From Hydractinia symbiolongicarpus (Eukaryota; Cnidaria; Hydrozoa; Anthoathecata; Hydractiniidae), in assembly GCF_029227915.1 (NCBI RefSeq), contig NC_079878.1, positions 26,809,501 to 26,873,500 of the forward strand: a stretch of 64,000 nt of DNA, in the 5' to 3' direction. Each line of letters opens with the position of its first letter. Within the stretch, counting starts at the first letter, position 1. Below the pieces are notes generated by a model. The model searched no databases. It was not told the DNA's origin and was given only the letters and a program-made list of their open reading frames with translations. This document shows, piece after piece, positions 14,415 to 58,385 of this stretch. The position numbers and the translations under genes are program-made.

Positions 14415-16522
14415 ATGTCGTTTTATACAACGACATTACCGTTAACAACAGATTTAATTAAAAACTTCACATCATACGGAGTGGCACCGTGCAATCTTCC
14501 AAAGGCAAGATCATTGGAGGATGTGTCGTACGCTATATATATGATACTGGTGTTGGTATCTAGTGTACTTGGTAACTGCATGGTCCTACTGGTTGTGACA
14601 ATGTCATCGTTGCTTCGTAGCCGTGTGACGTTCTACTTCATAGCTAGCCTGGGTAGGAAACCATTTAATTTTTTTGTAACACTTCAAGTGTTGTTTAACA
14701 TTTACTTTCGAGTGTTTGTTTTATTTTCATTTTTAATTACGATTTATACGCACTTCCTGTACGAATTTTGACTTGCGGTTTTCAGCATTCGAACTGCCCT
14801 GACATGTAGATTTTAAAAATTGGCTTGGAATTCTCGTAAAGTCACGGCAAAGGAGACATGAACAGATACATGCCATATTGACCCCTTAATTTCACCAGTA
14901 TACTAACACTTTCTTGAATTTTAAATCACATTGTCCAATTCATTCATTTTAGCTTGCTCTGATTTTGCACTTGCAATATTCCAAATCCCATTCAGAATAT
15001 CTTTGAAGTTAAATCACAATCGGTTTTGTCACGAATTGCCGGCTTGTTACATCATGTTGATATCAGATGCATTTGGAAATGTGGCAAGCATTCTGAATTT
15101 GTTTCTGATATCTATCGACAGGTATGCACTTTGTAGTACCTGTAACGAGAATATACTCGTAGCAAGAAAACTCTTTATAATGCATTTTTGACATTTTCAG
15201 TTACGTGTTTTAGAAATACCAGACCTTAAACAATCCGGTATAGAAGCTATTTTAATGTTGTTGTTTTTATATTTGTGTAACACATGGTATTCTGTCTATG
15301 CATTGTATTCATATGAACTGTTTTTGTCTACAGAAAATATATTCTAATAAAATTAAGTCGGAATAGACGTAAGTCGTTGATTAAATGATATAAAACTTTC
15401 ACTTTGATTATTTACACCAACAATCAGGAAAATTAAATACTGCAGTTAGCATTTCTGTGTGACAGCTTCTCTGTGGTTTAGAGGGACAATAAGTGGGCTC
15501 CATTATGTTGAGTTTTTATCTTGTTACAATATACTAAGCACAGATATATTAAGATATGGACTTTTTAAATGTCCTTTCAAAGCAGAGTGGCAACCTTGTC
15601 TCAACACTAAGTGGCGCGTGCTTAAAACCAACAGCATATTCGATTTTGAGTCACTTCTGAAGAAATGGGTTTTCAACAATATCATTTTTTTTTAATTTTA
15701 TATAGGTTTATTGCGATAAAATTTCCATTTCGTTACAACGACTTGCTATCGAAAACTCGTGTGAAGTACCTCATTTCTGCTGTCTGGATAATATCTGCCT
15801 TATGGGCTTTTACTGGTATATTTAACTGGAAAAAGAAAGAAGGGGATAGCGTATTTGGAATCTCAATCTCAAGAAGTTGTTTGAACAGCAACTACTACTT
15901 TTATGCTACGTCATTTTTTGGCATTTACATACCAGTTCTTGTAGCGATTACCATTGCATACCTGGCCATTCTCCACGTCGCCTTAACGCAAATACGAGCA
16001 ATTGAAGCAAGCACTGTCGCCCTTCCAACACAAAGGACTCTTCTTAATGCAGGCAATAACTCGCCTCGTACGGAAAAAATGAATAAGCGCAGAAAAAGGA
16101 CACTGAACAAGGAGTTAAAGGCAACAAAGTCAGTTGCAATAGTCTACTTGGCGTTTGTCATATGCTGGTTACCAAGTTGCGTTATCAACATTATCATTAT
16201 GATTGACAATATTTTTATAAGCATGAGAAGCGACAACGAGAAATTGTTCCTTTTTATATATTATTTCTTCATTGAAATTCTACCCAACACCAACACGATG
16301 GTAAATCCACTTATCTATAGCTTCTCAAATCAACAATTTAGGTCAGCATTTAAGACAGTCTACTTCAAGTTACTTGGTAGATATTCAAATGCATTTTACT
16401 CTCAACAGTCTCCTCGTACCTACGGAAGTGCTGATTTATCGATATCCGCGTCACCATCGATGAGTCCTTATCACGGAGAAAATCAGAAAATGGATACCAT
16501 TGCCATCTGGAAACCAGATTGA
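14415..16522 (+). CDS. Class A GPCR, adenosine-receptor-like (3 exons, 407 aa)
   Basis: Coding exons are 14415-14652, 14953-15121 and 15706-16522. Introns begin GTAGGA (phase 1) and GTATGC (phase 2) and end TTTTAG and TATATAG. The joined frame is open and ends in TGA. Seen: GN in TM1 (residues 53-54), SLACSD with Asp83 in TM2, DRF in place of DRY after TM3 (135-137), Trp163 in TM4, Cys194 in the second extracellular loop, Pro212 in TM5, CWLP in TM6 (289-292), NPLIY in TM7 (336-340), and an N-terminal NFTS glycosylation site. The segment after DRF (IAIKFPFRYNDLLSKTR), the TM6 start (KATKSVAI) and NTNTMVNPLIYSF resemble vertebrate adenosine receptors more than amine or peptide receptors. It should therefore be a plasma-membrane G-protein-coupled receptor; the ligand is inferred, not shown. 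The Asn at the TM6 ligand position (CWLPxxxxN) is kept, but the TM7 His of adenosine receptors is Asn here. Length is normal. Confidence 0.92.
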
Positions 16523-21924: not shown

Positions 21925-23683
21925 TTACTGCAGTTGCTTGCCAAATAAAAGACAGATGTCAGGTAGCGGCGACTTTTGATTGATAACTTTAAGATATTTG
22001 CATAAAAAAAAATCCTTTTGAATAGAGTGAATAAATTCGATTTCTTTAAACACAGTTAGCAAACGAACATCGGAATCTTTACCATCATATCCACAAACTT
22101 TTAATGGTGTGTTCAAATTAAAATGACCACGTTTTTGTTGACAATCTGAAAGCAATTGCTAAAAAAGTAATGACAATAAACATAACATCAGTCTTTCACT
22201 AACTAAGGCGGTTATAATATGAGATTTTTATCAGAATATATGCAATTCAAAGTAAGAGAGTTTATTGCAAAAGAGCGTGTGTAGTGTATCACTTTGTACA
22301 CATCACACTTAAGTCCTTTTAAAATAAGAAGTATAAGATTTTTTTTGATCGAACGTTGTATTGTAATGTTGTATTTAGATTACTGTAGTACGCGTTGTAT
22401 TATCAATAATGTAACAAAGTTATATAGTCGAGGGGGAATACAGAGCCAGTCTTTGGGACGAATTTACCCCAATGACGTTAAACCTTTGGTTGTTTTACTT
22501 TACTTACTTAAATTCTTGCTAAAGCACTAATAAGCAGTAGAAATGTTATGTGTTAGAACTTATTTCTACGTTTTATGTAAGCAAATTGTCATCTACTTTT
22601 AGTTTATTTAATACAAAAAGCGTTTCAAAAACAGTCGAAGAAACTGTCTCAAAAATTTCGGGAATTACAAAGTGTGACATGGTTGGATTACAACGTGCGA
22701 CAGGTTGAGGGATTACAAAGTATGACATAAAAGGATTACAAACTACGATAAGTTTTGAGATTATAAAGTGCAGCAAAATTGGATTATAAAGTGCGGCAGG
22801 ATTACAAGGTGATACACTACACAGCGTATAATGTTCCAACCCTGTATTTTTCCAAACAAACGTAAAATAACCTTACTTCATCAGCTGTTTGAAAAGCATT
22901 CTTGCTTTTAACAAGGATAGACTTCATCTTTATCACCTTTGACAAATAATAATATAATTTTCTTGGAATTATAAAGTGATATAATCACCCTGTAAGAGGA
23001 GAAACCATTTTCACGAGACCATATGTCATAATTATCACCATATCTGCAATTGTTTTTGCAGAGTTTTACTCCTTTTGTAAGTAGCTCCTTTTCCTAAAAA
23101 ACAACATGTTAGCAATCAATATATTATATAATATTGTAATATTTTTTAGACAGATTTGTGTATGCATTAAGCTGTAGAATCCGGACAAACTCACTTTCGG
23201 AAATTTCCTTTAAAGTCTGAAACATAGGCTAAATTGTCACAGAAGAATTTCCACCTTGAACGGCACATAAAACATTTTTCTGTAAAAAGGATAAAATGTA
23301 AATAACTGAATTTCGGTTTTCGTTTGTGAATTTTAGGTCTTTGATTTCATTGATCATGCTTTTACAAAGGAAATATTCTTACCATATGTTTTGCTAAGCT
23401 TTGAATGACACCTTCGTTGTCCTCCAGTACTTTGTTCAACACTTCTAAAATATCAATCGCACTGCAAATCACACGTGCTTCGCTAAGAATTACGTAGTCT
23501 GTAACAATAACGGCACATGCCATACCTAGGATAAAACAAGATATATTATCGGCACAAGAACGCGACATAAAATGAATATGTGGTGTAGTCATAGCCAAGC
23601 CAAAATCTGGTATTGTCTTAAATAATTCTTAAATCGAGCTTAGAATGTTGCTCACCCATAAGAATTTTAATCATAAACTCCAT
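21925..23683 (-). pseudogene. P1: secreted six-Cys helical protein, paralogue 1, exon 4 deleted
   Basis: Exons are 23683-23656 (28 nt, phase 1 end), 23525-23383 (143 nt), 23093-22989 (105 nt), a remnant of exon 4 at about 22950-22877, and 22158-21925 (78 codons with stop). Exon 1 plus the start of exon 2 encode a signal peptide beginning MEFMIKILMGMACAVIV. Exon 3 holds LCKNNC and YDIW; exon 5 starts QLLSDCQQ and contains CGYDGKDSDVRLLTVFKEI. Layout and phases match P2 (28290-29594). However, intron 3 and the first half of exon 4 are missing: only 38 bases separate the exon 3 end from the YLSKV coding stretch, in a different frame, and reading through meets a stop. Skipping from exon 3 to exon 5 would stay in frame but lose the central helices. 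I therefore call it a probable pseudogene. Role of the family: see P2. Confidence 0.7.
22660..22818. repeat. Degenerate minisatellite ggattacaaagtgygaca in P1 intron 4
   Basis: About seven units of 18-26 bp start ggattacaa or ggattataa and continue with agtgygaca-like text. A further unit (ggaattataaagtgatat) sits at 22975-22992, at the deletion scar of P1 exon 4. The 88-codon minus-strand frame across it (22839-22573), with repeated CNP…FVIP words, is a translation of the repeat. Confidence 0.8.
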
Positions 23684-24128
23684 CTCTGTTTGTATTTTCT
23701 TGTATTTCTTATACCTCGGTTCAGGTTTAGGATTTTTGTGTCATTTTTGAAAGATATCCTTCTTTTATTTAAAAAATAACAAAAAATCCCCTCCTTATTT
23801 TCCACGTATTTATCAACGAACAGAATATCGAAAAATGTATGCGTTTAAAATATGTACAAATTTGATTTAACTCTACACTATTGTCTTACATGATGTAAAA
23901 ATTATGCTTACTTTTTATTTTGACCCATGTTTCAGGACTTCAGCTATGTTTCTCTATTTTTCTCAATAGTGTTAACGAGGTTGACATATCTTTGCAGGGA
24001 ATGTTTAGTAATTAGTCAGTTTTTATGGACTATTTTCATTAATTATGATGTTAGAAAGTAAAATCATTTTTCCCCTATAGTTGCTCTGTAGACGAATAAC
24101 TCGGTGCATTGAAGTTATCAAAAAACGA
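23684..24128. promoter_or_regulatory. 5' flank of P1
   Basis: Upstream side of the P1 start codon. AT-rich, with no convincing TATA box or factor site I would defend. No gene. Confidence 0.25.
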
Positions 24129-24395
24129 ATCAGTATCCCTCAGTTGGTTACTGTTTATTTTTTTCTCATATGCATAACCGAGTGGTAAGATTATCTAGAA
24201 ACTTGGGAATCATTATGACAAATTAGGATAAATAACACCCTTTTATATGTCTTTATATAGGTATCAGTATCCCTCAGTTGGTTACTGTTTATTTTTTTCT
24301 CATATGCATAACCGAGTGGTAAGATTATCTAGAAACTTGGGAATCATTATGACAAATTAGGATAAATAACACCCTTTTATATGTCTTTATATAGG
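24129..24395. repeat. Perfect 134-bp tandem duplication
   Basis: The block starting atcagtatccctcagttggt at 24129 recurs at 24263 and runs to tatatagg at 24261 and 24395. I see no mismatch between the two copies, so the duplication is recent or is an assembly artefact. No coding content. Confidence 0.92.
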
Positions 24396-26672
24396 ACGAG
24401 ACGTTCTTGGATATGATCCAATCTAAAAACCAGATTAGTTGTTCTATACATGAATATTTTACATCTAGTTTTAGCAAATATGTAGCATAATTGTGTCAGT
24501 TCTGAGAACCAATTTTCATTTCCTCTTTCTTTTCGTTACAAAATTACTTGTCATTATGCTGCCTAATTATTCGACTCGTTTAATATTAAGTTACATCCTT
24601 TTTTAATCCAAGTAAATACACCTAAAACAAATACATAAAAAATAGGAGCAGATTCTCCATATAATATCTCGTCGATTAAATATGTCATTACAAAGGTATA
24701 ATTTAGTAAACGCGAAAAAGCTTTTAACGCCAGTTTAGCAATGAAACAGTTCACCGTAGATATGATCAGATGTCTAAGGTTTAAAACTTAAAAGGTTTGA
24801 ATAAAAAAACTTTTTTTCGCTTGAAAATAGACCTTCTTACTGCATTATGAAATTTTCCTTAATAATAAAATTGTTAAGATTACAAGTTTCGCGTCGATGC
24901 CATACTGAAAACTGTCCCTGCCCGTTATAACGTTCTTGCGTGTTAAAACGTTCCTGCGTGTTATAAATTTAGACCTGTTTTTGAGCCAATAGGAAACAAA
25001 TTGTTGACACGTGACTGTATTGTTTAAAACTGTTTTTAGGACTGTTTTAAAACAGTATGCAATATCGGCTACTCGCAAGATCAGCGAAAAGTACCGAACC
25101 ATTACTTTCATTTGACACTCTCATATGCTAAAATACTTCATCTTTTTGTCACTGACGTGATATGCATGTCTCACCACGGTATGTAGATAGGTCGCTTGGC
25201 AAGTGTCATTGTTTAGAAGAGGATGTTAAGAGACTACAATGAAATTGCAAATTTTACTGGTTAGAAATTACAGAAATCTGAAGGGTTCTTTAAATGTTGT
25301 TAAAAACACAACGGCGACAGTCAAAATGTGCAACTATAAAAAACTTGTTAAATGGCAGCAATTATGCGCGACGAGAGTAATAATTTCAATAAGTTTAATA
25401 GAAAAAAATTATTTAGGATTTATGATTGTTTTCTGTTTTTTTCTGATATTTTTATATTTATCATGATTGAGATAACAAAACATCGATCCAAATTAATTTC
25501 GTTTTTTTTTGCATTTCAGTTACATAGCTAATTAGAAGATATATTTCAATTCTTATTCTGCCAGATATGTTTTTATATTCTCGTAAGATGTGACTAATTA
25601 TCTATCTCATTAATTTAATATTACAATCTTTCCGTGTTATTTCATTTTCGCTTTTCATGGCTTTTCGGTAAAGGAAGCGTCGGTAATAAGTAAGTAATTT
25701 TTTCAATTTGTGACTTATACTTTGTACCAAAATATTTTACCGACAATTTTTGCCAATCAATCATTTTTATCAACAATTTTAACTGACTTTATTTTTTGCG
25801 ACTAATAGTTTCTACCAATTATGCTCAGATTTACGCTTTTTGAATCTTCAGTTGCGCTAGATTGGAGTTGCTACTTAGAAAGTGAATTTGATAATTTACG
25901 TATTTATGTATGATATCCAATGCCTACATAGCGCTTGATTTGATATAAAAAATTATTTTGGTAATTCTTTAAAAAATTAGTAGGTGGAAAGGTGACTAGT
26001 AGAATTTAGAAGATGGCGAAGTAGCTAGCTTTGTGCTAGCTAACTAAGTAATTTTATTTGGCAGCTTTATGCTAGCTAGCTTTAGGTATGACTGAGGGCA
26101 AAAAAAAAATAGTGTTATATTATTTTTTTTACTCAATCTCAGTGTTGAAAAAACACACTGTCTCGCTTAATCAGAAATTTACGAAAATATGTCATGTTTA
26201 TAACACTGATAAACTGAGTCATCACTATGTTTTTAACTTATAAGGACAAAATCTTATAAAAATGCTATATACTCTTCACCGTAGTAACTTTTAACTTATA
26301 CTTCACTTAGCAAGTGACTAGATTTGTGCAAGTTACTTTTACCGACCGAATATTTTTTTGCAGACAAAGTTGTATGAAGGAAAAAAAATTATAATATAGC
26401 AAAATAGATGAAAATATGTCGCATTTGTTATATGTAGCTAAAAGACTTCGTGCGTGGCTTAGCATGATTGGTTTTTAGCATACATGCAGACAAACGGCTA
26501 TTATTATAGAGACATCGTAGCAAAATAGAATTCAGGGACAAACTGATGATTGTCAAACTTGTCATTAGAGGCCCAAAAATATATTTACCTTCGTCAGTTT
26601 GAGGTTAGATAACCTGATGAAGAAATATTTACCATATTTAATGCAGACTTTATCGAATCTATTATTGCACTC
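24396..26672. other. No gene seen; gctagc-rich stretch near 26020-26090
   Basis: Small frames (for example 25111-24845, -) lack recognisable domains. Several gctagc palindromes cluster around 26020-26080. Nothing else is supportable. Confidence 0.45.
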
Positions 26673-27403
26673 TTAACCCTATTCGGTCCGGGGGGGATTC
26701 CCCCCCCTGACGGTTTTTTTAATAACTCCTGATTGCTTTCTTATATGGCTATGGTACTTACTGAGTTTCAACATTTATCTATTAGACACCTGCATGCTAA
26801 ATTTTTAGGTCCCATAATTTTCAGAGGCTTTGATATTGGCCATTACTCGAAACTACCCCTAAAATCTCTATGAAATCCTTATAATGGGGAAAATATAATA
26901 ACTCCTGTTAGGAATATCGTTAGAACTTGAAACTTGCAACACAACTTTTTTCATGAGGAAGAATCATTTTGAATAATTTTGACACGTGACTAATCCGATT
27001 TCCCGATTTTGTCGGATTTTACCTGAAAATCGGAAAAAACGGATTTTCGGGCAATTTTTGGCAATGTTTTATCCGATCCATGTAAAAACCGGAAGATATG
27101 TTAAAAAAATTTATTTAGCTTTCAGAAACTTTAAACAGAATGTAAAAATTCGCTCTAGAACAAAAGTAATTATATTTTAAGCCGATAGTGGCATTTTTAA
27201 CAATTTTCAAGCTTCTGATGACGTCACAGAAAATGTGCTGACTCAAGCAAAAATTTATTGCCGCCATTTTGTTCCTTTTATGACGTACTATAAGTGTGCC
27301 AAGTTTGATTCAATTTGAACAATCCTATGAAAAGTTATTGAGGGGGGGGGGCGGAATCCGCAGTCATGGTATGTTCGAAAAACTCCGGACCGAATAGGGT
27401 TAA
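26673..27403. mobile_element. piggyBac-type MITE, 723 bp with TTAA target duplication
   Basis: TTAA at 26673-26676 and again at 27400-27403 flank the element. Its ends are inverted repeats: CCCTATTCGGTCCGGGG at the left, and the reverse complement ending ACCGAATAGGG at the right, with one extra base near the inner edge. A TTAA duplication and ends beginning CCC are hallmarks of piggyBac elements. The interior (poly-G/poly-C patches, no long frame; the 64-codon frame at 26986-27180 is not transposase-like) shows it is non-autonomous. A 68-bp relative lies at 18939-19006 and a diverged relative at 1-1165. Confidence 0.88.
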
Positions 27404-27469
27404 CGTAGAAATATAGAATATTTTTACTTTACTGCCACTATGTATCTTTTTTGTTTAATAGATACGTAT

Positions 27470-27507
27470 GACCAATTCTAATGTGCGAATGCACATTAGA
27501 ATTGGTC
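27470..27507. repeat. Perfect hairpin, 17-bp arms, 4-nt loop
   Basis: gaccaattctaatgtgc (27470-27486), loop gaat, then the exact reverse complement (27491-27507). It lies 67 bp outside the MITE and may be the end of, or a scar from, another element. It is not followed by a T-run and is not a bacterial terminator. Confidence 0.9.
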
Positions 27508-28289
27508 CCAGGTGGTCCCTAGTTACCCACGCGGTAAAAAAATCATTGACGTCACCACCTCGTTTCCAAGTGATTTGGCCTCAAAGATTAAGGTGCACAA
27601 TAATTTAATATAAGATATTGACGTTAAAGTAGTGTTATTGACGTCGCGCCATAACGTCAGAAAATTTAACATTTGAGACATAACTTTTTCGGCAACATCA
27701 AAGGAAAATGAACACATCCACATAGCCTGTCACAGACAGACAGACAAACTTGGCGTATTATAATATAGACCAGCCAATATGGCCCGTGGAAAAATCCACT
27801 AAAATAGGTTGTTTTAGACTTTTTCCTGACGTCAGCAATGCCCCGTCAAAACCCCCTAAAAATTGACGATGTCCACTATGACCGTCACATACAAAACGTA
27901 TTATCATATAAGAAGATTTTTATTGAGCCGTTTTCTAATTATAAGAAATTGACGAATTTCTTCATCATTTTGCACCCTGTTAAAGTTTATGTGCAAAAGA
28001 GTCAATGAACAGTTATAATACACATATTTTTGTAGATACTAGGATACATTTTCTAATAACAGTATAAATATATTAGCATTTTGCAAATAAAATAGAATGT
28101 ACATTGTGGACCAAATAAATATATGATAACAAAAACTTTAGAAAGTTCATTCATTAATATCACTCACATTGGGTGAAAAAATTTCACTTATCGGGCAATC
28201 GGTTTAGTTTTAAAATAAAATAGAAGTCCCCATCTAAATCTAAATTAAAAGATGTTCCATTGTTGCGGTTACATAACAAGTTTTATTAA
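27508..28289. other. No gene seen; 3' flank of P2
   Basis: Contains a gacagacagacagac microsatellite near 27730 and a stretch (28060-28110) resembling part of the 4135/7740 repeat (agtataaatat … gcaaataaaatag). No coding signal. Confidence 0.4.
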
Positions 28290-29594
28290 TTACAAGTCAA
28301 ATAAAGGGCAAGGAAATGGAAGCTTTGACAGTTGATTGATAACTTTATGATATTTGCAACGAAAGAAGGTCTGTTGTATAGAGTGAATGAATTCGATTTC
28401 TTTAAACACAGTTAGCAGACGAACATCAGAATCTTTACCATCGTATCCAGGAACTTTCAATGTTGTGTTAAATCGAAATTTGGGTGGATCTTGTTGACAA
28501 TGTGAAATTAATTGCTAAAAAAATGGTAGTTAACAATATAATAACCATTCATTTTTAACATTTTAGCCTACCACCTGCTATTGCAATGCACTGAGTAAAT
28601 GACCAAACTAAATATTAGAACTGTTTCAAGGTTGTCAGAAAGAAATTTCTAAATTCGATACGCATTATATCAATTTTAATTATAATTTTTACACAATCTT
28701 ACTTTATAAGCTGTTTGAAAAGCATTCTTGCTTTTAACAAGGATAGACTTCATCTTTATCACCTTTGACAAATAATTTCCACTCATGTAGTTCTGCAATT
28801 CGTCGATGTATATTTCAGTAACATTGGCTGCCATTACTAAGCGCTCCATCATCTAAAAAATACGAAAAAGCCTTTACACGTTTATTATGCCTAACCAAGT
28901 GTGATATCGTCCATTATTGTAACAGATAATCCATAATTATAATTATGAAAAAGAAACGAAACTTATTTATTGCGATTTTCCCAGAATTGCATTTAAGATT
29001 CTTAAAATTTACACTGCTATTTACCTCTAACGAAGGAGAGCCATTTCCATACATCCAATCGTTGTAGTTGTCACCATATCTGCACATATCGCCACAGAGT
29101 CTTACTCCTTTTCTAACCAGTTTATTTTCCTAGAACATATAGATGATTAGTCATTTCAAAGAAACGCAGTGCATTTCGTTGCGTGATCTGTGACTATGGA
29201 ACTGTTGTTCTACATAGTTTTTTAAATCATTTAGAAATCAGAGTTGTTGAGTCGGTAATCACAAGGAATAAGTTTAAATATAAATGGTTCTCACCAAACC
29301 TGCTGCTAACACAGATATAAATTCGTCATTTTTCGTAATATTTTCATCGAGTTCCTTTAGAATGTTTGTTGCGCTGCATGTCTCATCCAATTTCGCTGTT
29401 TGTATGTGTTCTCCAACAATAATGGTACTTGCCACACCTAGAAGAAAAGAATGTATCACATATAACGCTGTATATTACTTGCCCTTAGAACATATGGGCG
29501 GAGTAATAAGCACTTCTGGTTTTGTGCTCATAAAAGAACTCTTGAAGAACCATGTAAATCACTTACTAATTAAAATTTTTATTATAAATCCCAT
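28290..29594 (-). CDS. P2: secreted six-Cys helical protein, cytokine-like gene plan (216 aa)
   Basis: Five coding exons: 29594-29567 (28 nt), 29437-29295 (143), 29129-29025 (105), 28852-28703 (150), 28514-28290 (225 with stop). All introns have GT…AG borders (GTAAGT, GTGAGA, GTAAAT, GTAAGA) and phases 1, 0, 0, 0. An AATAAA overlaps the bases just after the stop (TTTATT on + at 28282-28287). The protein starts with a signal peptide (MGFIIKILISVASTIIVG) interrupted by intron 1. It has six cysteines shared with P1 and P3 (ETC; LCGDMC; SHCQQ; FRCK; FPC), a Y-x-x-W in exon 3 (YNDW), and NIT, NVT and NTT glycosylation sites. Exons 2, 4 and 5 look helical; exon 3 looks like a loop. I recognise no sequence family. 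The exon lengths and phases match long-chain class I helical cytokines, so a secreted signalling ligand is the leading inference; a lineage-specific secreted effector is the alternative. Confidence 0.83.
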
Positions 29595-31299
29595 TCCTGC
29601 TTGTTTGATTTATTCTACACTCCTCGCACGATTTCAAGTTTAAATTTCTTGTCATATTTTTAAAAGTATCGACCTTTTATAATAGCAAGGCCATGAAAAT
29701 TTCCTCTGTTTTACTGTGATTAAGACAAGCTGACACAAAACTAAAATTTATGAGAACACTTGAAATTTACTTGATTTTAAGACTTCGATAGTCTACAGAA
29801 GCACTGACGTAATTTATATGTAAGCTCGAAGGGAAGTTTTAATAATTAGCTAATGTTTATAAAATAGTCTCATTAATTAAAAACTAAAAAGTAAAACTTG
29901 CTTTTCTGCAAATTTCTAACAAGAAAGCTTCGTGATATTAGTATGCGGGTAAAACAATATGTCACTTACCTCCAGTAGAGGGAATACTTTTGTCTCAAAT
30001 GTATAATGATTAATCAATTGAATTAAATGTTCCCATTTGCACGGCGAGACAATGAGAGAATGTAGCGGGTTCGTAGGGAGAATCTAAGAGAATAAAACAA
30101 TTTTTCAACAAGATATTTATGACGAAGAATGATTAGTTTATGTTATTGCCTTCATTAGTGGCAATGATAATGAAGAAATTCTGCATTTGCAAGCCTCTGC
30201 ATCGCTTTTTTGACCTTCTTCCTTTCATGTTGTGCTGTCAGTGAGCCGTTAAACATGGAAATTTTACATGACCAAAGAGGTTGTGAAGTTGGGGACATAC
30301 AAGATTGCTCCATGTTTATGTAAAATGAACAGGACGCAGAAGGAGAATAATGTACACAAATTGTGTCAGCTCTGACTTGTTATTACTTAATTGTGATTTT
30401 TCTTAAAAAGATAACTTTTGCTTTCAAAAAAGTTATGCGATAATTAATTGCATTTAAATTTACAGTATGTCAATTTTAGAACAAAAAATTAACGACTAGA
30501 TACTAATTAAAACAGTCAGAAAATGTTATAATTAGTGCAGTAATTGTTGGGACAGTTTCTATTAGTTTAGGTAACATAAAGCACGACTTATGTTGTTCTA
30601 GATTACACGTTTTCCCTTTAAATGGTGATTTTGAATTTACTATTGTTAATAAACGAATTATATTTGTAGCAAAATGACTTAAAGGAACTTTCGTGGACGT
30701 GATTACTATACTTCAAGGTTTGCTAATAACGCTAATTTTACGTACAAATCTAAAAGAAAGAGATACTTAGCAGATGATTTCCCCACTTTTAATAAACGAT
30801 ATTATGAAATATGTACGTAGGCCATGTGGTAATTATTTCTCGTTTCGCCTTCCCAATCATCTTCATATTGAGCCCTTTTTGACTCGTTATAAACCTACAC
30901 TGCACCAACTAATTATTAGGCTGTTACAGCATAAATTTCACCAACTTACTTCAAAAGAGTTTCCCATGTTTGGTGAAGCAATGATAGGTTGCTTTTATTA
31001 CATGGTTTGACTACCCTTACACCATCTTACATCAATTGCAATCGAACTTGAAAAGATAACACGAAAACTAAGCAACATAAATTAACCACTAAACCCTATG
31101 AATAATCATTTAGACTTTCGCTTTTTTATGATAGCGTCATAGAAAAACATTTCTATTTTTGAGCGCCTGGTAAATGTCATATTTTTCAAGCTATTTTGTA
31201 TCTTTTAAAGTCACGATTTTTAGTGCATTTCAAAAGGGCTTGCTGGCAAATAATTACCAAATATGGGAAGAATCTGACGTGTATTTTACACAATCAAAA
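29595..31299. other. 5' flank of P2; no gene seen
   Basis: No supportable coding region. A 78-codon plus-strand frame (30774-31010) has no domain or splice partner. If P2 is regulated from this side I cannot name a site. Confidence 0.4.
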
Positions 31300-33960
31300 T
31301 AAAGTCTAAGCCTGCTTACTCACTTCTGTTGCTATTACCAATGATACGTCGGTATAATTATTATGATATCCTATCGACCCTTTCAGAAGTCTGTATAGAG
31401 GGGTATCAAAGGTCAAGGTAGCCATATCAACCCTGGTTGCTTCTTCAATGGGGACCATGCCTAGAATCTTCCACTTTTTGTCATCCAGGAAGCAGTACTC
31501 GTCATCCAGCTGATGATAGGCAAGTGGTAGTCGAAGGTATTATACCTTCGACTACTACTACTTATAATCATACTGGCCGTATTCCTTACTAGCTTCAACG
31601 TTTCTGTCTCAGGGTTGTATATAAAGTCAAGCGTTGGTAGATCTTGAACCATGGTCAACCCCGTAAATGTTGTTGCTTTTGAAAGAGTGTAGTGCGAGAT
31701 TTTTCTATCTGCATTATACTGCTCGCTCATGTATTTTTTGTTGCCCTTTGCATAAAGATCTACTGATAAGGTGATACTTCCGCGAAAACCTTTTCAAACA
31801 TGAGGATCGTGTCGTAGTCTGTTAGAAGTTCCAGCTTCATTTATATATACTATAGTGCTGCCTTCGATGCTAGTCCCGATGCAGTGTGAGAATGCGTGGG
31901 ATCTCTATTCCGGCCTTTTTCACATTGCACTTATAGCTGTCTAGGCAGACATCTCGGAAATTCTAAATACCATAGAGGAGCAACATGTCAGTAGAAAGGG
32001 AGATTTGGTGACAATCACCAAGCGCAACCTGATTACCTTCTGACGTGTTACTATTCCTGACTTACTGTTTGTACTCATAGTCATTATCGGAGATTCCAGA
32101 CATATTGAGCTTGCTGTAGAACGACTCTTTGGTAGGTAACTCAGTCTCCTCGAACCGTTTCCAATCATCCATGTATTCATACGGGTACACTATATTTATG
32201 AGTATCAGCCTGAAAGCACCATCCTGATTGAAAAGTCATGTCATGGAACGTAGGCTTGACTATAGCCCTTTTTTCTGCAACTGCTTCGTTCGGGCTTCCT
32301 AGCTTACATTCCATCCATCTAAATCCAGCGACGTAATTGTCCAATATGTCCTCAGGTTCCATACGCTCCTGCTCACATTCTTTGCACTTCATTCCGGCGG
32401 TACCCGTACCGGTCAGGTTGCTTGAAAGCTTGCCCAGGAATCTACAACTATCGATGAACCTTAACTCCATTTTCTTGTGCATTTTCTTCCCGGTGAATGT
32501 TTTAGTACTACTATCAATACTTATAGCAATACTTCGACTTTGATGGTGAAAGTGATATATTTCTGCGAGTTCAGACGCGCATTGTAGCCGCTTAAATTAT
32601 GGAACATTCTTATCTTATGTCGTTCTTATGTGCTGCACTTTGATGGAGACCCATAAAGTTACAGTTTTCGCAGACCTTGGATGCTGCAGGAATTTATCGT
32701 GCAATTGCTTCACCTCGTTCTCAAGATGACCTACAAATTCCTCTACGCAATGGGTCTGGAACATTGCTATAGGCAAACTTGTTGTGCGTGCACGTGTTAA
32801 GCTTCTTGGTCTTGCTTTCTCTAGCATCGTCTACTGGAATAAGTAAACTTTCAACACCATCGTAATATTTTAGCCATTCTTTCGCTCTTCTTGTGCATGG
32901 CGACCGTGGCTGCCTCATGATCGATTCAATATTCGTAGTACTTGTCTTTTGACTCGGCTGTGTTGATTCACGCAATTCAGACAGAAATGCATCGCCTTTT
33001 TGATTTTATAATGGCCTAATAGCCGGAAAGGTTTTTGTTGCCAATGTATTTAATCTTTTTTTCATCTGTGATTAGGTGTACATTCACTTGCTAGCTGCGT
33101 GTAATGTTGTGCTCTATGGTGTTAATGCTCTTCTCTGTGATGTAAAGCGCATTCACTGCTATGTCTGGACTGTGCTTCTCAACGTTAAATATGCGGTTGA
33201 AAGCCAATAGGAACTCTATTTCTTGCCTATTGTAGTCATCTTCAAACTCCAGTCTTGATATTCTTTGAGGATGCAGAGATGCTATGACGCTCCACTTGAA
33301 ATACTCTTCGTCTTCATTCTTTGGATGGATGATGGACTATTTAGTCCCAATCCATGCAGGCAGAGCGATGTAGGAAGAGCGCATTGTGAGTTGCTGCTTA
33401 TGAAAATCTACGTTAATGGGGATGATCCGACTTATAGCAAAGACTCTCGCCGTTAGGGCAGGGTGTTCCGCATGCTTCTTGGTCTGCTCAAACATGGAAT
33501 CCAGAGCATCGTTAACGCTGCTGCCTTGAAAAATATCCGTGAGGTTGTTGCTGAAGACGCTTTTAATTCTTGTATAGTCCTCTGAATGCTTCTCTGTTTC
33601 CTCCTTCATATTCCTCGGTTCGAGCTGCACCATATTATCCACATGGACAAGTGCGTCTTGACAGATTCCATCTTCTTCACTTGATCCTTAATTAATGTTT
33701 TGACGCCAGTTATTACCATACCAGTATACCCGTCAACACTGTTGCTGCTTTGGTTATACCAGGAATGCAGAGTCTCAGGAAGGTCTTGTACAGCGCGTGC
33801 TTATGCTCTTGGAGGGTTAGATCGGGATCGTGTCTTTCCTTCTCGAGGCTCCTCATATATGAGATTTCTCTTCTTTCGACGCCATTAAATGCCCTTTCTA
33901 CGCGCTTCTTTATAGTCTTTAACATTATCAGCCATTTATACCATACACGGCAATTGAGAA
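31300..33960 (-). mobile_element. Degraded Polinton/Maverick relic (protein-primed DNA polymerase B)
   Basis: Minus-strand fragments in collinear order resemble the type B DNA polymerase of Polinton-like elements. They are KNEDEEYFKW (near 33318) after FAISRIIPINVDF; LRFIDSCRFL (near 32460, exonuclease region); YPYEYMDDW with LPTKESFYSKLNMS (about 32186-32100); and LELLTDYDTILMFEK (near 31840). They are split over different frames with in-frame stops (for example TAG just after PAWIGTK near 33336). The palm motif that normally reads D-x-x-x-LYG is not recognisable. The 70-codon frame at 33925-33713 may be an N-terminal part but I cannot identify it. No terminal repeats, integrase or capsid genes were found. 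The element is dead. It lies between P2 and P3. Confidence 0.75.
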
Positions 33961-34944
33961 TATCCCATTCTTAAGGACTTAAGGTCACTAATGTCGGGGG
34001 GAACGGTCCCCAGATTTATTCACGTGGAAAAATCCCAGTATATTAAGGATTAACAAAAGAATTATTGGCTGTCTCTATAGATGTAGAAACATGTCCTTTT
34101 ACAATCCTACGTAAAAGGGATTTCCAGAAGGATCATGAAGTCTCATTCTTCGCATTTGCATGATTGAGAATTCAGTTTATTTTCATTCTTATGAACCTTG
34201 CGATATTCTATCAAATATATTGACTTGTATTTTAACACGCATATTAAAACGTTATACCACTCACTTTTTTTATTTACGCATATTACTGCACAGACGGCGC
34301 GACGATATTCTATTTTTAAACATGAAATGAAATATTATCGCATGGCGCACAGCGAAATATCGCTTCGCCGCCCAACCAATTTAATTAAGACTTTATCTTA
34401 AGAAAGTGAGTTCTAGCAAACTATTGTAACTTTCTATGGAAGATTGTTATTGAAGTAAAAGGTACGGGTATTTATTTGAAGAAAATTTACAAACTCTGAA
34501 TAATTGTATGTCAACTATATTTGTTGGACAATTGCTTTTTTAAATAAATAAATATATTAATAAATAATGTCGTCTTAATTAAATAAAATTTCCAAGCGTG
34601 AAATTTTACTATTTAAACTTTAAATGTAGAAAAAGCATGTTAGAGTGAACATTGAATATAAAGAACTTGCCAATTTAGTGAGCTAATACACTTGTCACTC
34701 GTTTCACTGTAAGACACAAGGTAAAAGAAGGAGTGGATGTCACAGAGGTGTATTAAACGAAGAGAATATCAGAATGTAAAAATATCGTTAAACTGCATGA
34801 TGCATGATAGAATTACAGTATTGTATATGTCAAACCTATTTCAGTGTTATATAGGAGGCAACGTTATCTTAATGGTTGTATGGTAATATTAACTTTTAAG
34901 GATTCAATGGCCAGCGGCAAACGGTCAAAACATTGTTCCTAATT
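33961..34944. other. 3' flank of P3; no gene seen
   Basis: AT-rich, with aaataaataaatatattaataaat near 34540-34565. No coding feature is supportable. Confidence 0.4.
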
Positions 34945-37900
34945 TTAGGGTTGACAAAATTTGTTCCTTTTGTTTAGAAATTCCATTATCTTGCAAAAGT
35001 AGTAATTTCTTTGTGTGGCAATGATTATTTTCAGTTGGTATAAAATTCTTAAAAGTGTGGCGCTTGATATTCTTCCTGCATGCGCGGCTATGGGAAATGG
35101 TGTCGCAATCGGTTTTCCTGGTGTCTGTTGTTGACATCCGTCGATAAGATCCTAGAACGGAAATCAGATCCAGTTAGTATAAAAACAAAAATTAAAAGTA
35201 TTCTGCGTAAAGTGTTTGTCCATTACCATCCACCCGTAGGTAAAAATTTGGAATAATTTCAGATATATTAAATATCGAAATTATTTTTACGCTCCTCTGT
35301 TTTTTTTCATTATGAAAGCACTCTATTGCGTTAAATAATCTCAAAGAAGGAGAATTGCGGGAACAAAGAATGCTATAAAATACTCTATAATAAAACTGTA
35401 ATTGTCAAATTTATGTTATAAATTTACTATGAAAAATCTTAAAGTGGATGATCAAAGAGATTCAATTCCGTGAAATCAGCATGATCTCCTATTCCACCTC
35501 TTCTAATATTGCCTTACGCATTCCTTAAAAAAGTGTTTGTGGTAAAGACAATGGTTACTAAACATTTGAGTTTTGCTTTACGTATATTTTGGATGTGTCA
35601 CAAATGACCACGCCCAGTTTTGCAAAAACCTAAATTAACTAAGACCAACAAACTTTAAAATTGTCGGTAACATTATTATTATCAACGCAGAACTTTAAAG
35701 ATTTTTCAAAATCTATAAAGAGATTCTTAACTCTTTTTATTGCACGCCGTACATTGTCAAAACAATTTTTTGTTCCTTTAGCTTAATATATAATTATCTA
35801 AAACTTACTGAAATGTAATTTGGCTTTTACGTGCACGGGCAAAAATAATATACCTTTACGGCAATTTGAGTGTTATTCTTCAATTCCCCCAACGACTGCA
35901 GCGTGATTGAGACGTGTAGTGTTTCATTCATAAGTTGGATGTTTAACACGTCTAAAAATCTTTGAATGACATGGCTGTGGACGGATAAGGTTCGTACAAA
36001 CTAATAAAAACAATTTAAAACTTTTTGCAACTTTTCAGAAACAAAACTAAATTATGTCCTCAGAGGTAAAGACATATTTCGCAAGTTAGAACCCTGTAGA
36101 GAAACCCTACTGACATTGCCTTAGTCTAGTAATAATAGACACTAGTCGTTAAACCCGTGAAAACATCAATTTAGGCAAAAAACGAAAACATAGGTTGTTT
36201 AGGAGATTTAATAGCGTTAGTAGTGCATCTGCAAGAAATATTTTAAAGAAATTGTCAAGCTGTTGAAAATGTATAGGATTATGCACTTTAGACGAACGGT
36301 TACAGAGATATTGGGATTTAAAGGTATCTTGACGATTTCATTATTTCGTCCATTCCATAATAGATGGATTGAATCAGCTTTAAGAAATTAGTCCTTTTTT
36401 GGTCTCAGGTAGTCCGTTAATTATAAGCATGTGAAGAGTCCTAGAACAGATGCTCGTGGTGTTTTACACGTTAGTTCAAAATGAAATACCATCTTACAGT
36501 CATCTCATGTATTGAATTGTTCTTCTTCCATTCTTTATAGTGAGTTGGTTTGCCACAGATACGAGAAAACTCGCAGGAAATCCCAGTGATTTTTTCCTAA
36601 ACATTTGTAGAAGTTCAAACACCAATCTGTTTTCGTTTCTTTGAGCATTATGCTATGTAAGTGCATAGAAAGTCGATGAAAAGCAAAAACCGAACTCTAA
36701 TTAACAGAAATTCACTTTCGATGGAGATATATTTTATATCTGTATGGTACCGGTATTAGTAAAGTTCATTCAATCTGAATTTTTGTTTTTACATAGCTAC
36801 TAGAAACAAAAATAGATAAAAAAGGAATGGTATACATAAAATGTGAAATTTTATCATTGTAATGACTGTACACCTGAAGGCAAATTCTAAAGACTTCTGC
36901 GCATCGCTTTAACAAACATCTGATGCTAATGCTTATAACAGCTTTTGCCGTTTTCTTAAATGATAGAATGTCTCCAACTGAATATGTAAAAAAGTTAGAA
37001 AGGTAAACTAGAATTGAAAATAAAAAAGTTGAGATTTTCCTAATAATACATCTTTCATAATATGGTATTATTAGTATTTTTAATGATTTGATGACTTCAT
37101 CACAAAAGTGTTGACGTCAGCAAGAAACTTTTATGCTAACTTTGTATGCTTTCCCCGTGAATGATATTGAACCGAGAGCCTAACGCTATCACATATCTAA
37201 TCCTTTAAAAGTTGTAGTAGCTTCTTGTGGAACGCGAATGAAAAAAGAATTTGATGTGTAGACAAATGAAGAGACAAATGCACAAAAACCTGAGAAGATT
37301 TAAACATTGATTTGTTCATTACACAGTAAAATTAGTATATTGTGTCACCTAATGTTTCTCATAATGTAATATTTTTTCTTTATATGGCAGAATTATAATT
37401 AGTATTTCGGTACCATCCCAGAATGACTTGATCATTGCAAATGCAGTATGGTTGTACAATTATTTCAGCGTCTCAGATGATTACTTAGGTATTTGACCAG
37501 TCATCTAAATGCCGACCTCTACTTCTTTCTTTAAATAATAATCTCGCTAAATTATTTTTATAAAAGTCCCAACGATACTTCCCTTTCATTTGTAAAAAAA
37601 TTTGTAGATACATAAAAATACATACCAATTTTTTTAAAATCCTTTTAATGTAATCTACGACTTCCTGTGATTCTATTTTCAGTTTTTCCAAAAGTGTAAA
37701 ATAGATGCTGCATCCATCTGCTTCAACTTGATAGATTATCACAACAAAAACTAAAAATTAACAACAGTAAATAGTGTTAATTTTTCTAACCTAAACAGTT
37801 CTAAAGTTTACTGACCCAGTTAGAAACAGCAAATAATGGTGGGTTTTAGCTTTCAAACCAAAGCAAATACTGTCTTATCAAAAGTACATGTATTACTGCT

Positions 37901-37973
37901 GCAACTGTTAGTAGAAAAAATCATTTGTGCCATAAATTTCTACCCACTTACCAATGAAGAATGTTAATTCCAT
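34945..37973 (-). CDS. P3: secreted six-Cys helical protein, cytokine-like gene plan (199 aa)
   Basis: Five coding exons: 37973-37952 (22 nt), 37750-37626 (125), 36596-36498 (99), 36000-35854 (147), 35151-34945 (207 with stop TAA). Donors are GTAAGT, GTATGT, GTAAGA and GTATAT; acceptors all end TAG. Phases are 1, 0, 0, 0. The signal peptide reads MELTFFIVFVVIIYQVEA across intron 1. Six cysteines align with P2: DGC after the signal, SC and IC in exon 3, DGCQQ at the start of exon 5, YFCK, and KFCQP at the end. Exon 3 also keeps Y-x-x-W (YKEW). NNS, NET and NNT sites could be glycosylated. Overall identity to P2 is low, so this is an old duplicate, yet splice positions and cysteines are kept; that argues for a functional gene. 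The 147-nt exon 4 is the size of the same exon in vertebrate IL-6 and G-CSF. Function is inferred only from architecture. Confidence 0.83.
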
Positions 37974-47757: not shown

Positions 47758-50700
47758 TTATAGACAGGTGCTATATTCGCGTGTTACAGTACATTTTTGG
47801 CACGACACGGTGCAACAATATTCAAAAAGACACTTGCAGTTTTCTACACGTTTTAAAATCTTCGTTTTCCAAGATCTACCGCAGCATAGAAGTTCACAGC
47901 CATTAACACCTTTTGCTCTGAGGGATGCGTTACAATATCTGCCTTGTGTTCCTAGCGAACCTTCGGATATACTTGGGACGCAAAAATTTGGCGACTCTTC
48001 AAAGTAAACCAAGTCTTTCAATGTTGGTTTTAAATGTATAGAACTGCTTGGTCCTAAGTTATTACGTGTAATACGTCGACTTCCGGTGATTTGTACTGGC
48101 ACCACTTTAGAAGCTGTGTTGTATTTTTCTTTGAGTAGATAGCCTACTTGTCGGAATGTTGGAAGTACTTTTCGGCATGTTTGGACGTTACAGGCTCCGG
48201 ATAAGCCATGACACTTGCATTTTATTTTCATTGAATCAAGTACAGCCTGGAAGTATTGAGAAAACAGCCATATATTATTTTGTTATAATAAACTAAACAA
48301 TCTTACCTCTTTTAATTTTTAGATGTACTGTATTTTTTTGTGATATATGTTAACAACTTTATATTTAACTGAAGATGGCCGAAGTTTCGACCGAAAGCTT
48401 TTACTAAATATATTGGATTTGAAAACACGCTGATGTTTTTATATGTTCTGTATTTTCTTAAAATATTTTTTTATCGCGTCACAGGAGAAATAGCAATGCG
48501 GACTGCATCTTTTGAAAATGCCACACTGTGATGAAAGACCAAGCCTGGACAGTGTCGTGAAAATAAACCCTTCGATAAGGTAGACTTTGTCAAATCTTGC
48601 AATGTTTTTATTAGAGAAATCTGTCAAATTTAACTGGAATTTGCAACAACCGAAACTTAGTTTTTACAAAACATTATTATTTGTTCTGGATTATTAATAT
48701 GGCGTGAGAAACATAGCGTGATAATTACATCCTAAGAATGTATATGTAAATGACATTTGAATGTGAAAAAGAAAAGATGTTTAGCCAAAAATATTTCGCT
48801 TGGTGTACTTATATCAGTTAGTCTTATAAAGGCGAATCAAATTTTTTAAATGTGTAATAACTCTTTGATTTTCAGTTGTATTTTCTCTTGACTTGTTCTT
48901 TCTTTCTGAATAATATCTCGTTATTTTAAGAAATTTAGCTTACTGAAGAGTGCTTATTCAAAAAAGCATTTTAGATCCAAATTAAATCCAGTTTCTTAAT
49001 AAACATAGTGGAAATAGTTTAGGTGGTGGGGGTTTGGAAATGTATTAAAAATTTGTAATTTATAGGGGAGACAACTAAGGCCCAGCCCTGAGTGGCAGAT
49101 GTGGGAAAGAATAGATATTGTAAGGGAATTGTTTTAATAGTTGTTAACATACCGTTTGAACCTAATTACTGACGGTTTAAACAAGGCAATAGAGCAAGGT
49201 TGCAAAAAAGGCCCAAAATTAAAATAAACAATCGGGGTTCACTTGGCACTATAGAGTAGTTTAAAATTAGACTTTTTAAAAATTTTTAAAAGGGAATTAA
49301 TGATATCAACAACTTGTTTGTATCATTTGTAATCTTATTAGCAGAAGCGCCTGATTACTTAGGAGGAGGCATATATAAAAAGATATCTCAGTTGCTATGG
49401 AAATACTCATACCAATCTGCCAGCTTCGTTGTTATGAAGGTTAACGATGGATTTAAAATCTCGACTTGTTTCTTTCGCGTCAACAAAATGTTTTCCTCTC
49501 TGATAACCAAACCGAACACTCTCAGTGCAGCCATCATATATCCAAGAGTTGTTCACTCGGGTACCTTTTCCTGATTCAGCGGAACAGTGACATCGTTTCA
49601 TGAAACCGCTGGCGCAACTTTCGATCAATGCATATGTGACACCAGCTGATGTAATAGCATGTATGAAGGCTGTTTCTCGGCAGGCTAAAATAAATGATTT
49701 GCATATTTTTGAACTAGAATCATTAAAGGCTTGTTTTCACTTGACAGCATTTTCCGCTATCACGAGCACTTGAAAAAAGTCTCTAACTTTATCAAAGTAG
49801 GCATGCGCTAACAGAAAACTTGTGAACACATTGCAGAAAATGCTGTCAGACGGAAATGAGCCTTAATATTTGCACACCGTTACATCAGGAGATCTTTTTT
49901 CCTCGTTGTGAAAAATTACTTTTAAAGGAAGGAATTTAACGGTTATAGATGATTGTTCCGCAAAATATAAAAAAAATATGTCCAGTTATATTCTAAAAAA
50001 ATGGAAAAGAGAAGTCAATTTTTTTTTATCTCAAAAGCAATGATACGTCCGGACTTGAAAACTTTGAAAATGTCTTTAAAATGTGACTTCAGGTCCTATA
50101 AACTATTAGAAAAATGAGTAAAAAAAAATAAAAATGTCGTTATAGCTGAAAAAATTCAGTTTGTTCTTTAAAAGGTAATTTGGTCCAAACAACCATAAAA
50201 TTTTATTCTAAAATACAACTCAAAACCAATTTTTCTGCAGCATACTAACTAACCTATATTTAATACTTTGCCGAACACTGACTCTGAACTATAATTGGCG
50301 CAGTTCCATCTTCTATTTTCAAATTGCTTTTTACACTCTTGTATGGCCATAGACGCCCCCTTTCCTGCGACAGGGAGTAGTTTAGGCGTATTAGCTATCA
50401 AAGTTCTCTGAAGTCCAGTAAATTTATGCAGCGTCATAAGAGTTTGAGGTGATATTTTCTTCATGTCAATGTTACCAACAGTCCTAAAATAAATATAAAA
50501 GAATAAGGTTTATTTACTTGCAAGTTGTAACACAGTAGGAATGTATCTTTCCTTCTTGGAGCTTAAAAATAGTATTCAGAAACACCTATCCGAAAGGGAT
50601 TGAAATAAGTACACCTACACCCTTGACAAAAATTAAATGAGAGTGTTTTTTTAAAGTATAATACCACACCCAATAGAGAACATTATTTATGTCTAAATAA

Positions 50701-55725: not shown

Positions 55726-58385
55726 CTTTTAGTATCTACGGTTTTTCAGTCCCTTCAGCACGATTCTGTCCCTAATTTGAATTTAATAGTGTAAGCAGGG
55801 CTTTAACAAATTCAATTTGTCGACCTGAGAAAAGCACTTGGTGATATCGAAAGAGATCGTCCGTCCAATGTAAAGCAATCAAATATTCAACAGCTTTTTA
55901 AATAGAGTTTCTTTTTTATGTAAACAATGAAAATAAAGATTGAATAAAACTTGAATTATGTTTTCTTGATTTTGAAATACAGAATTTCTCTCTGTAATTC
56001 GAATTTTCACTCTCTGAAGCTGATAATTTGAATCTCTTTATATTAAGAAAGGCAGGGATTCTGTATTTATTTGAAAACTTTGTCAAATAAGAGTTTATAC
56101 CTGTTTTTTAAGTTAGTTTCATAAAATTGGAAAAATAGTTTTAAAGAAATAACTTTCTAGCTAAGTAAAGAATGATAAAAATGAGCATAAAATCATGTAG
56201 CCATTTCATAGAATTCTAATTTATATCTCTCTGTAATTAACGTGGATTGGCACTTTCAAATTTTAGGTAATTTCTTCTAAATATTAGTACGTCCTTTAAA
56301 GTGAATTGATATTTTAGCATTTTTCTAAATTCAGCGCACAAATTCGAACATCAACATAAAAATGATAATATTTTTCTTCATCTCGTTGAGCTATATCCAT
56401 TGGTGAAAGTATTTTGTTGATAGAGTGACATGTACAGAGGCACATGGACTAAGTCTTTATAATTTTGATCTGCAAATTGCCAAGACGCAAACCAATGAGC
56501 CAGAAACACATCCTACAAAGTAATAACTACACATACATGGATGGGAAAATAAAAGTTTATTTAAGGTAGTATTTCAGTGCGTACACGTGTCAAGCTCTAC
56601 ATAGCTTATCAAAAGTCATTGAGAAATCGATCACACAACTTTCTAGGCAATAATAACGCTAACATTATGATATTTGCGTAGTCAGACTTTTCTTAGTAAT
56701 ACTTTTGTCTTTCAAGTCTTAGTTCAGCAATACAAATACTAAATATTTGGGAAGTAGAGAGAAAAGGTCACAAACTTGTTTCCCACTGTTATTAAAATAT
56801 TTACTTTCAAACAGCGTTATGAAGGAAACACCAATGTTTCATTTTAAGAATGTAGAATAATACAGAAGACCCAAGTTTTTAAGGCATTTTGCCTTGTTCA
56901 GTAAGTATTGTGGACCGCATCCCCAAATTAAGACATGTTTGACTCAAAAAAGAGGTTATTTAGAGTTTATGATATAGTTTTTGGTAGAAATGCTAGTGTG
57001 CTGTGCCTTTCACTTAAACAATAAGACTTTATATCAGTATATAGAGGAAAAAAACAGTGCTGTAAGAAAGAAAAGAAAAAGAAGAATAAAAATACTTATT
57101 TGCTGTAGTTAGCACAAGATTGTACTGACAACTAATAAATAAAGTGAAATGATATTAACAAAATCTACTAAAATATGATTACAATTAGTACGACGGAAAC
57201 AAAGAGGACAAAAGCCGGAACATAACAGTAACTAATATCGTAATTAACTTGAAACTCCTCTGTTTTTTCTTTGAGAAAAAACTCTGTTGTTTTGAATCAT
57301 TCCAAAAGAAGAGAATGGCAGAAAAAACAATCCTATAATACATGCTATTTTCGAATGCCGTAAAGAGAATTTATGAGAAAAACACATTCTTATTTGTTGT
57401 TGCAATAAAAATAGAGAAAGATTTGTAAGCAAGAAGTATTTGTCTTAAAAAACTAGATATCAAACAGATATTCAATTCGGTAAAACCGGATGTCAAAATT
57501 ATGCAGTCTGGCATGACATTCCACTCGGCCAAGACCTTGTAGAATATCACAACCTCGACTGTAAGTTTCAATACCCGATTCTATCTCATCTAAAATTTAT
57601 TTATTGTGAAGAAATTTAGGAATTTATTTTACGATTACTTTTAATTATAATATTTTTCTCTGATTTGCTTGAATTTAAAGAGATTTTTTTACCCTAAGCT
57701 AGTGACTAAAAAAATTCAATTCCAAAGGAACTAATAAGATTTGTAGGATTATCAAAATAATGTATTAGGAAAATCATTTATGTAAATTAAAAACACAAAT
57801 GGTCCCAGTACAGAGCATGAATATCAAGTTTGGTAATCTGAGCGAATGATTCGTTCAGGGAAAACAAATTGCTTGCGGTTATGGAGATAGGAGGCATATA
57901 AAAAGTTCAAAACACCACAAATGTCTTATTAAGACAGTTTGGTAAGTAAGATTGTCATGTTCCACGGTACTTTTTGAAGGCCTTGGACTGCACATATTAG
58001 AATCATTCATAATTCTCTGAGAGATATTTAATAAAGCAGGAGCAGTAAAATAACTTTTTTAAAATCTAAATTGCTGTTTATAAAATACGTTGTATTATAA
58101 GTAATGCAAGTCCTGGTCACATATTAAAATAGGAGAAGCTGAGGACAAAATTGCATCAAATCCCGGTACCAATTTAGGGTCGCAAGTCTTGATAATATAC
58201 ACTGAAAGTTACGACACAAAAAAAAACATTGACTCTCCTACGTAATTATAATGATTCATTGCAGGATTTCGACAGTCACTGTGGGGGAGGGATCGATTTA
58301 TGAGGAATGATTCCCAGAAAAGATGTTTCTTCTTTAAAAAAAAGGGAACCAACAAGACTCAGCTAGCTAGTGATGTCAAATTGCT

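Follow-up and report, generated by a model that had tools for sequence, protein, structure and literature searches.

The stretch studied here is a window of 64,000 nucleotides from the hydroid Hydractinia symbiolongicarpus (contig NC_079878.1, forward-strand positions 26,809,501 to 26,873,500), which carries on its minus strand a tandem family of three genes, P1, P2 and P3. P2 and P3 are working genes. Each has five coding exons, the same sequence of intron phases and six cysteines distributed alike over the exons. We tentatively propose, at somewhat less than an even chance, that their products are extracellular cytokine-like helical ligands of the class I type. The support for this likeness is anatomical, and consists of the exon plan, the intron phases, the order of helices predicted at low confidence and, in exon 3 of P2, a C-x3-C pair with [YF]xxW as in erythropoietin (EPO).

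Gene models and relatives of P2 and P3

The exons of P2 and P3 were rebuilt on the minus strand from the window sequence (coordinates are window positions). P2 (29594-28290) has five coding exons of 28/143/105/150/225 nt that join into an uninterrupted frame of 216 residues, and P3 (37973-34945) has five of 22/125/99/147/207 nt with an uninterrupted frame of 199 residues. All eight introns are of the GT...AG form, with phases 1-0-0-0 in each gene, and the exon sizes and phases given in an earlier note on this DNA are thus borne out. That note had described a trio of five-exon genes, which is right for P2 and P3 but not for P1, which has lost the 5' half of exon 4 together with the acceptor.

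In P2, exon 1 (29567..29594, ending in phase 1), exon 2 (29295..29437) and exon 3 (29025..29129, with C-x3-C and Y-x-x-W) are defined by the frame and the splice sites. Exon 4 (28703..28852) is covered by annotation from residue 99 on, and exon 5 with the stop codon (28290..28514) is backed by the frame and by a database protein. In P3, exon 1 (37952..37973, phase 1 at its end) is followed by exon 2 (37626..37750), which encodes the remaining signal peptide, the first cysteine (C1) and a predicted helix A, and which is backed by a spliced relative. Exon 3 (36498..36596) holds C2, C3, Y-x-x-W and the predicted A-B connection, exon 4 (35854..36000) helix B and the greater part of helix C, both predicted, and exon 5 with the stop codon (34945..35151) the predicted end of helix C with C4, the C-D loop, helix D with C5 and, after it, C6.

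The cysteines lie at residues 30, 69, 73, 148, 195 and 211 of P2 and at 21, 57, 63, 137, 184 and 197 of P3; in both proteins exon 2 encodes one, exon 3 two, exon 4 none and exon 5 three. Their spacing in P2 and P3 is 39/36 (C1-C2), 4/6 (C2-C3), 75/74 (C3-C4), 47/47 (C4-C5) and 16/13 (C5-C6). The exon 3 pair is C-x3-C in P2 and P1 and C-x5-C in P3, and exon 3 of all three genes encodes Y-x-x-W, as YDIW or YNDW in P1 and P2 (YNDW in P2) and as YKEW in P3. The six cysteines and the Y-x-x-W motif that had been reported for P2 and P3 are therefore confirmed, in the same exons and at similar spacing.

Aligned with each other, P2 and P3 are 26% identical over 144 residues (E=1e-14), a score equalled by none of 500 shuffles, and the borders 2/3, 3/4 and 4/5 between exons fall at the same or almost the same alignment positions. 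Near the N-terminus of P1, P2, P3 and the relative P0002 the best 10-residue Kyte-Doolittle mean reaches 2.59-3.38, a measure of hydropathy only. The earlier description of a tandem family, its exons and cysteines conserved and its products apparently secreted, is supported. The mature P2 and P3 proteins, putatively secreted, would be about 180-195 residues long.

P0002 is a relative of 213 residues that is 91% identical to P3 end to end, across all five exons. It starts at an ATG matching the one at 38015, which is in frame 14 codons upstream of P3 exon 1. Because its source contigs (at most 1,129 bases) are too short for the 3,029 bases that the exons and introns of P3 span in the genome, P0002 reads as a spliced RNA or a copy of one, which gives the P3 exon model independent support.

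Annotation support for P2 is confined to residues 99-216, to which LOC130640714, a protein of 118 residues from the same species, is identical. For P3 the protein searches yielded nothing from NCBI or UniRef. The family had been called invisible to annotation, and as far as these searches go that is largely right, apart from this terminal part of P2. A search of the 480.9-Mb assembly with P2 gave 8 matches, all within P1-P3; with P3 it gave 7, all within P1-P3 but one at C6:10210005, which at E 1.19 was taken as chance and not as a further paralogue. Only P1-P3 stand above chance in these searches, and remoter paralogues may lie below their sensitivity. No paper on these genes was among the open-licence papers listed, the locus name itself not being among the queries.

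Predicted structure and comparison with helical cytokines

Two AlphaFold models of P0002 were made, from alignments of 2 and 9 rows; the latter derives from an alignment of all exon pieces, 4 of whose 13 rows were dropped because P1 and P2 were misplaced in exons 2 and 3. Only the secondary structure, which was similar in both runs, was used. At low confidence the models contain helices up to residue 44 (including the signal region) and at 49-67, 93-121 or 91-120, 127-153 or 126-152, and 173-207 or 175-206, with connections, from residue 67 on, of 25 or 23, then 5, then 19 or 22 residues. This long-short-long order is suggestive of an up-up-down-down bundle, as a fit to that arrangement and not as a demonstrated fold. 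The exons would likewise partition the predicted structure into helix A, connection, B-C hairpin, and crossover with helix D. In a simple propensity scan, exon 3 and the beginning of exon 5 contain turns, as does the stretch between helices B and C of P2, and hydrophobic moments indicate helix-like periodicity in 6 of the 8 supposed helix segments.

Vertebrate long-chain class I cytokine genes have intron phases 1-0-0-0, and exon 4 of IL-6 and G-CSF is 147 bp long. The same plan, with five coding exons, a short first exon and these phases, is found in P2 and P3 but not in P1. Animal genes commonly have phase-1 introns in their signal peptides and other introns in phase 0, and taken by itself the phase pattern is a weak argument; we would guess that it is shared by a few percent of five-exon genes for secreted proteins.

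The published gene structures, taken from excerpts of the papers cited here and below, agree in exon number. The IL-6 gene has five exons with helix A in exon 2 (PMC7284502), as predicted for P3, and the five exons of G-CSF are common to carp, human and mouse (PMC6389648). Avian growth hormone (GH) genes also have five, with a very short exon 1 in those species that were examined by RNA-seq (PMC10016047), as does EPO (PMC12832296). The C2-C3 spacing of 6 in P3 equals that of human IL-6 Cys72-Cys78 (PMC7284502), whereas the cysteine set as a whole differs from those of IL-6 and G-CSF.

A further anatomical likeness is to exon 3 of EPO, which by our own reading of the published probes for the exon 2-3 and exon 2-4 junctions extends from TGCAEHC to WKRME between phase-0 introns (PMC12832296). 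C-x3-C is followed by FYAW in EPO and by YNDW in P2, and in both the first cysteine lies just before helix A (a predicted helix in P2) and the last near the C-terminus. EPO has no cysteine between Cys33 and Cys161; unlike EPO and TPO, P2 and P3 have two extra ones, in the predicted end of helix C and in predicted helix D, and the tryptophan stands 9 residues after C3 in the family but 18 in EPO.

We also considered insect odorant-binding proteins, which are all-helical and secreted, have six cysteines, and share with P2 the spacing C2-x3-C3. Their C3-C4 and C4-C5 spacings are far shorter than the 74-75 and 47 residues in P2 and P3, P3 has C2-x5-C3, and neither protein has a Pfam match over cut-off; this identity was rejected on cysteine spacing.

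A number of results weigh against the class I-like reading. Mean predicted local distance difference test (pLDDT) scores of P0002 were only 38.9 (2 rows) and 40.3 (9 rows). The A-B connection is partly helical in both models (81-89 in one, 73-77 and 80-89 in the other), so that 'loop' is a generous term. The propensity scan also puts turns within the supposed helix A of P2 and within helices C and D of P3, and helices B and D of P2 are the 2 of 8 segments that show no advantage for helical periodicity. Foldseek with the P0002 model gave no match at E<=0.001 among 130. The structural check proposed in the earlier note, run here on the relative of P3, thus returned the expected helix order and long-short-long connections, but at low pLDDT and without a significant Foldseek match. 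VIA-align and Foldseek with these low-confidence models returned varied helical hairpins and were uninformative; the appearance of a mouse oncostatin M receptor complex entry in the Foldseek list (rank 39, E 4.5, probability 0.07) was dismissed as meaningless.

Sequence searches point the same way. A word-filtered profile search with four query sequences, covering 5.8 billion proteins and scoring 1,597 candidates, gave two hits at E<=10, the already known P0001 and P0002, and nothing else. In the Pfam scan P3 had no match and P2 none over cut-off, the IL6/G-CSF family included; the weak P2 matches to GyrB_insert (17.7 bits), DUF2887, Nmad2 and DUF6486 fell below cut-off and were set aside as apparently unrelated. 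Searches of PDB sequences gave best E values of 0.56, 0.075 and 0.43, all to unrelated proteins. Direct sequence comparison covered EPO and TPO. Against shuffles, P2 and P3 had z scores of -0.55 to 0.78 with EPO and TPO in local alignment, no similarity beyond chance, and of 0.30 to 2.01 in global alignment, where the best pair, P3-EPO (14 of 500 shuffles as good), is not significant over eight tests. The EPO-TPO control gave z 9.5 (local) and 7.0 (global). Alignment of the family profile to EPO and TPO with hhalign reached a probability of 1%. The EPO-like pattern of exon 3 was noticed first and tested afterwards, so the frequency with which shuffled exon 3 sequences show the order of cysteine pair and aromatic-x-x-W (1,473 and 1,079 per 100,000, about 1%) is a post hoc figure. 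In the genome, the JAK PH-like domain (PF17887) had one match, below cut-off and with stops; an exon-wise six-frame search being a weak instrument, this speaks neither for nor against the presence of JAK.

EPO and TPO match each other by phmmer only at E 0.23-0.58; detectable similarity to a known member is therefore not a strict requirement for class I. The note's reading of the family as class I helical cytokines keeps its footing in the exon plan, the phases and the low-confidence helix order, but no fold is established and no similarity to EPO or TPO was detected.

The damaged copy P1 and the neighbourhood of the cluster

P1 comprises exon 1 (23656..23683, 28 nt, phase 1), exon 2 (23383..23525, 143 nt), exon 3 (22989..23093, 105 nt), a remnant of exon 4 (22877..22949) and exon 5 with the stop codon (21925..22158, 234 nt), all on the minus strand. 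Exon 4 is reduced to its last 73 nt, which start 39 nt past exon 3. P1 also carries two additional cysteines, one in the signal region and one in exon 5. It may be a broken copy, or its product may skip exon 4, which would keep the frame because the flanking introns are in phase 0; we regard the two as about equally likely.

Around the remnant of exon 4 (22869-22950, 82 bp), P1 and P2 are 96% identical, compared with 82% and 75% in the matched stretches of exons 5 and 3; this excess suggests a recent local copy event or gene conversion. The rates of non-synonymous and synonymous substitution (dN/dS) between P1 and P2 by the NG86 method are 0.72/1.29 in exon 2, 0.39/1.22 in exon 3 and 0.21/0.59 in exon 5. 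The ratios, about 0.56, 0.32 and 0.35, are rough because for exons 2 and 3 dS lies above 1 and YN00 gives no value. In the exon 5 core, 7 codons differ silently and 5 non-silently. Purifying selection between P1 and P2 is supported by these counts, if more roughly than the gene models.

Upstream of P1, at 24129-24385, a segment is duplicated in tandem; at least 123 consecutive bases are repeated without change, at a spacing of 134 bases. Between P2 and P3, the minus strand of 31300-34000 is a G+C-richer stretch with broken reading frames; G+C is 42.6% in 32001-34000, as against 35.4% and 32.0% in the 2-kb bins on either side. One piece of the stretch resembles the DNA polymerase of Polinton/Maverick elements, and three pieces that were scanned had no Pfam match at E<=0.01. 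Elsewhere the window holds exons of a Wnt gene (47761-49736, minus strand; PF00110, E 3e-51 and 3.4e-25), an exon of a rhodopsin-type G-protein-coupled receptor (15650-16519, plus strand; PF00001, E 1.3e-22), a RING-finger exon (58374-58667, plus strand; PF13445, E 1.5e-11) and part of a reverse transcriptase (62424-62969, minus strand; PF00078, E 3.8e-21).

Alternative explanations and signalling context

If P2 and P3 encode class I-like ligands, each product would be a small, secreted, disulfide-bonded and mainly helical protein. Exon 2 would encode helix A, exon 3 a long connection held in place by a C2-C3 bridge, exon 4 the B-C hairpin, and exon 5 a long crossover and helix D, while C1-C6 and C4-C5 disulfides would probably join the ends. 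The receptor of such a ligand would be a single-pass protein, and signalling would proceed through STAT.

A serious competitor, which we consider possible at roughly one chance in three, is that the family consists of lineage-specific secreted helical effectors, stabilised by disulfides, that are not receptor ligands and resemble cytokine genes in exon plan by coincidence. Nematocyst content, antimicrobial or digestive proteins, and egg or mucus components are conceivable roles. The proteins are small, contain cysteines, lie in tandem and have diverged to 26% identity between paralogues; beyond the three genes in the genome, one Hydractinia protein and P0002 were the sole relatives that the searches returned, and, with introns of both kinds frequent among animals, the 1-0-0-0 pattern is a weak mark on its own. 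What speaks for a cytokine-like ligand instead is that the exon borders fall near the predicted helix ends, as in long-chain cytokines. We find it unlikely that the proteins are secreted helical signalling ligands of some other, possibly new, fold outside class I, acting for instance in allorecognition, reproduction or regeneration. Such ligands would be consistent with a conserved six-cysteine frame in a fast-changing sequence with dN/dS below 1, and with models and structure searches that fix no fold, but the long-short-long connections, predicted at low confidence, are those expected of an up-up-down-down bundle.

Class II cytokines of the interferon/IL-10 type (such as IFN-upsilon and IL-10) are likewise secreted and helical, with five coding exons, and these exons together with a signal peptide, several helices and intron phase zero were the criteria by which type IV interferon was found (PMC8863823). 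P2 and P3 share the exon number and, as far as predicted, the signal peptide and helices. Because class II introns are in phase zero, whereas the first intron is in phase 1 in P1, P2 and P3, the phases point away from class II and fit class I better, and we judge a class II identity very improbable. It is scarcely credible that the family is non-functional, a set of decayed or mis-assembled exons: the truncated exon 4 of P1 and a database protein that covers only the end of P2 could be read in that way, but the frames and splice sites of P2 and P3 are intact, P3 has a spliced full-length relative, and synonymous changes are in excess between P1 and P2. Within the class I-like reading, which we continue to prefer, the stronger claim that P2 and P3 are true class I cytokines is improbable. 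In that case they would share an ancestral gene with vertebrate long-chain cytokines, the five-exon 1-0-0-0 plan having outlasted sequence similarity, and could be the native ligands that are still missing for cnidarian CRLF3.

An exon encoding part of STAT (STAT_bind, PF02864) was found in the genome at C12:17352010-17352093, over cut-off at 29.1 bits, and a nearby frame looks like the beginning of a STAT DNA-binding domain. CRLF3, an orphan class I receptor, is reported from cnidarians to mammals, its endogenous ligand not being known (PMC6797617), and the insect protein is activated by erythropoietin (PMC6797617; PMC8063046). A CRLF3 orthologue would be the first candidate receptor for P2 and P3. 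In its excerpted text, PMC6797617, citing others, places the four-helix bundle, SHP, STAT and SOCS already in cnidarian ancestors, and names Bilateria as a possible point of origin for JAK and cytokine receptors; PMC13203501 has JAK and STAT co-occurring in Porifera and Cnidaria.

The origin of helical cytokines is an open question on which P1-P3 bear. According to the part of a 2026 survey used here, IL6 was detected only in vertebrates, while JAK and STAT are far older (PMC13203501). The bare idea of a cnidarian four-helix bundle is not new (PMC6797617). Genes of this kind escape annotation by reason of their small exons and their lack of sequence similarity. A concrete family of three hydroid genes, one of them with a spliced relative, makes the idea experimentally testable.

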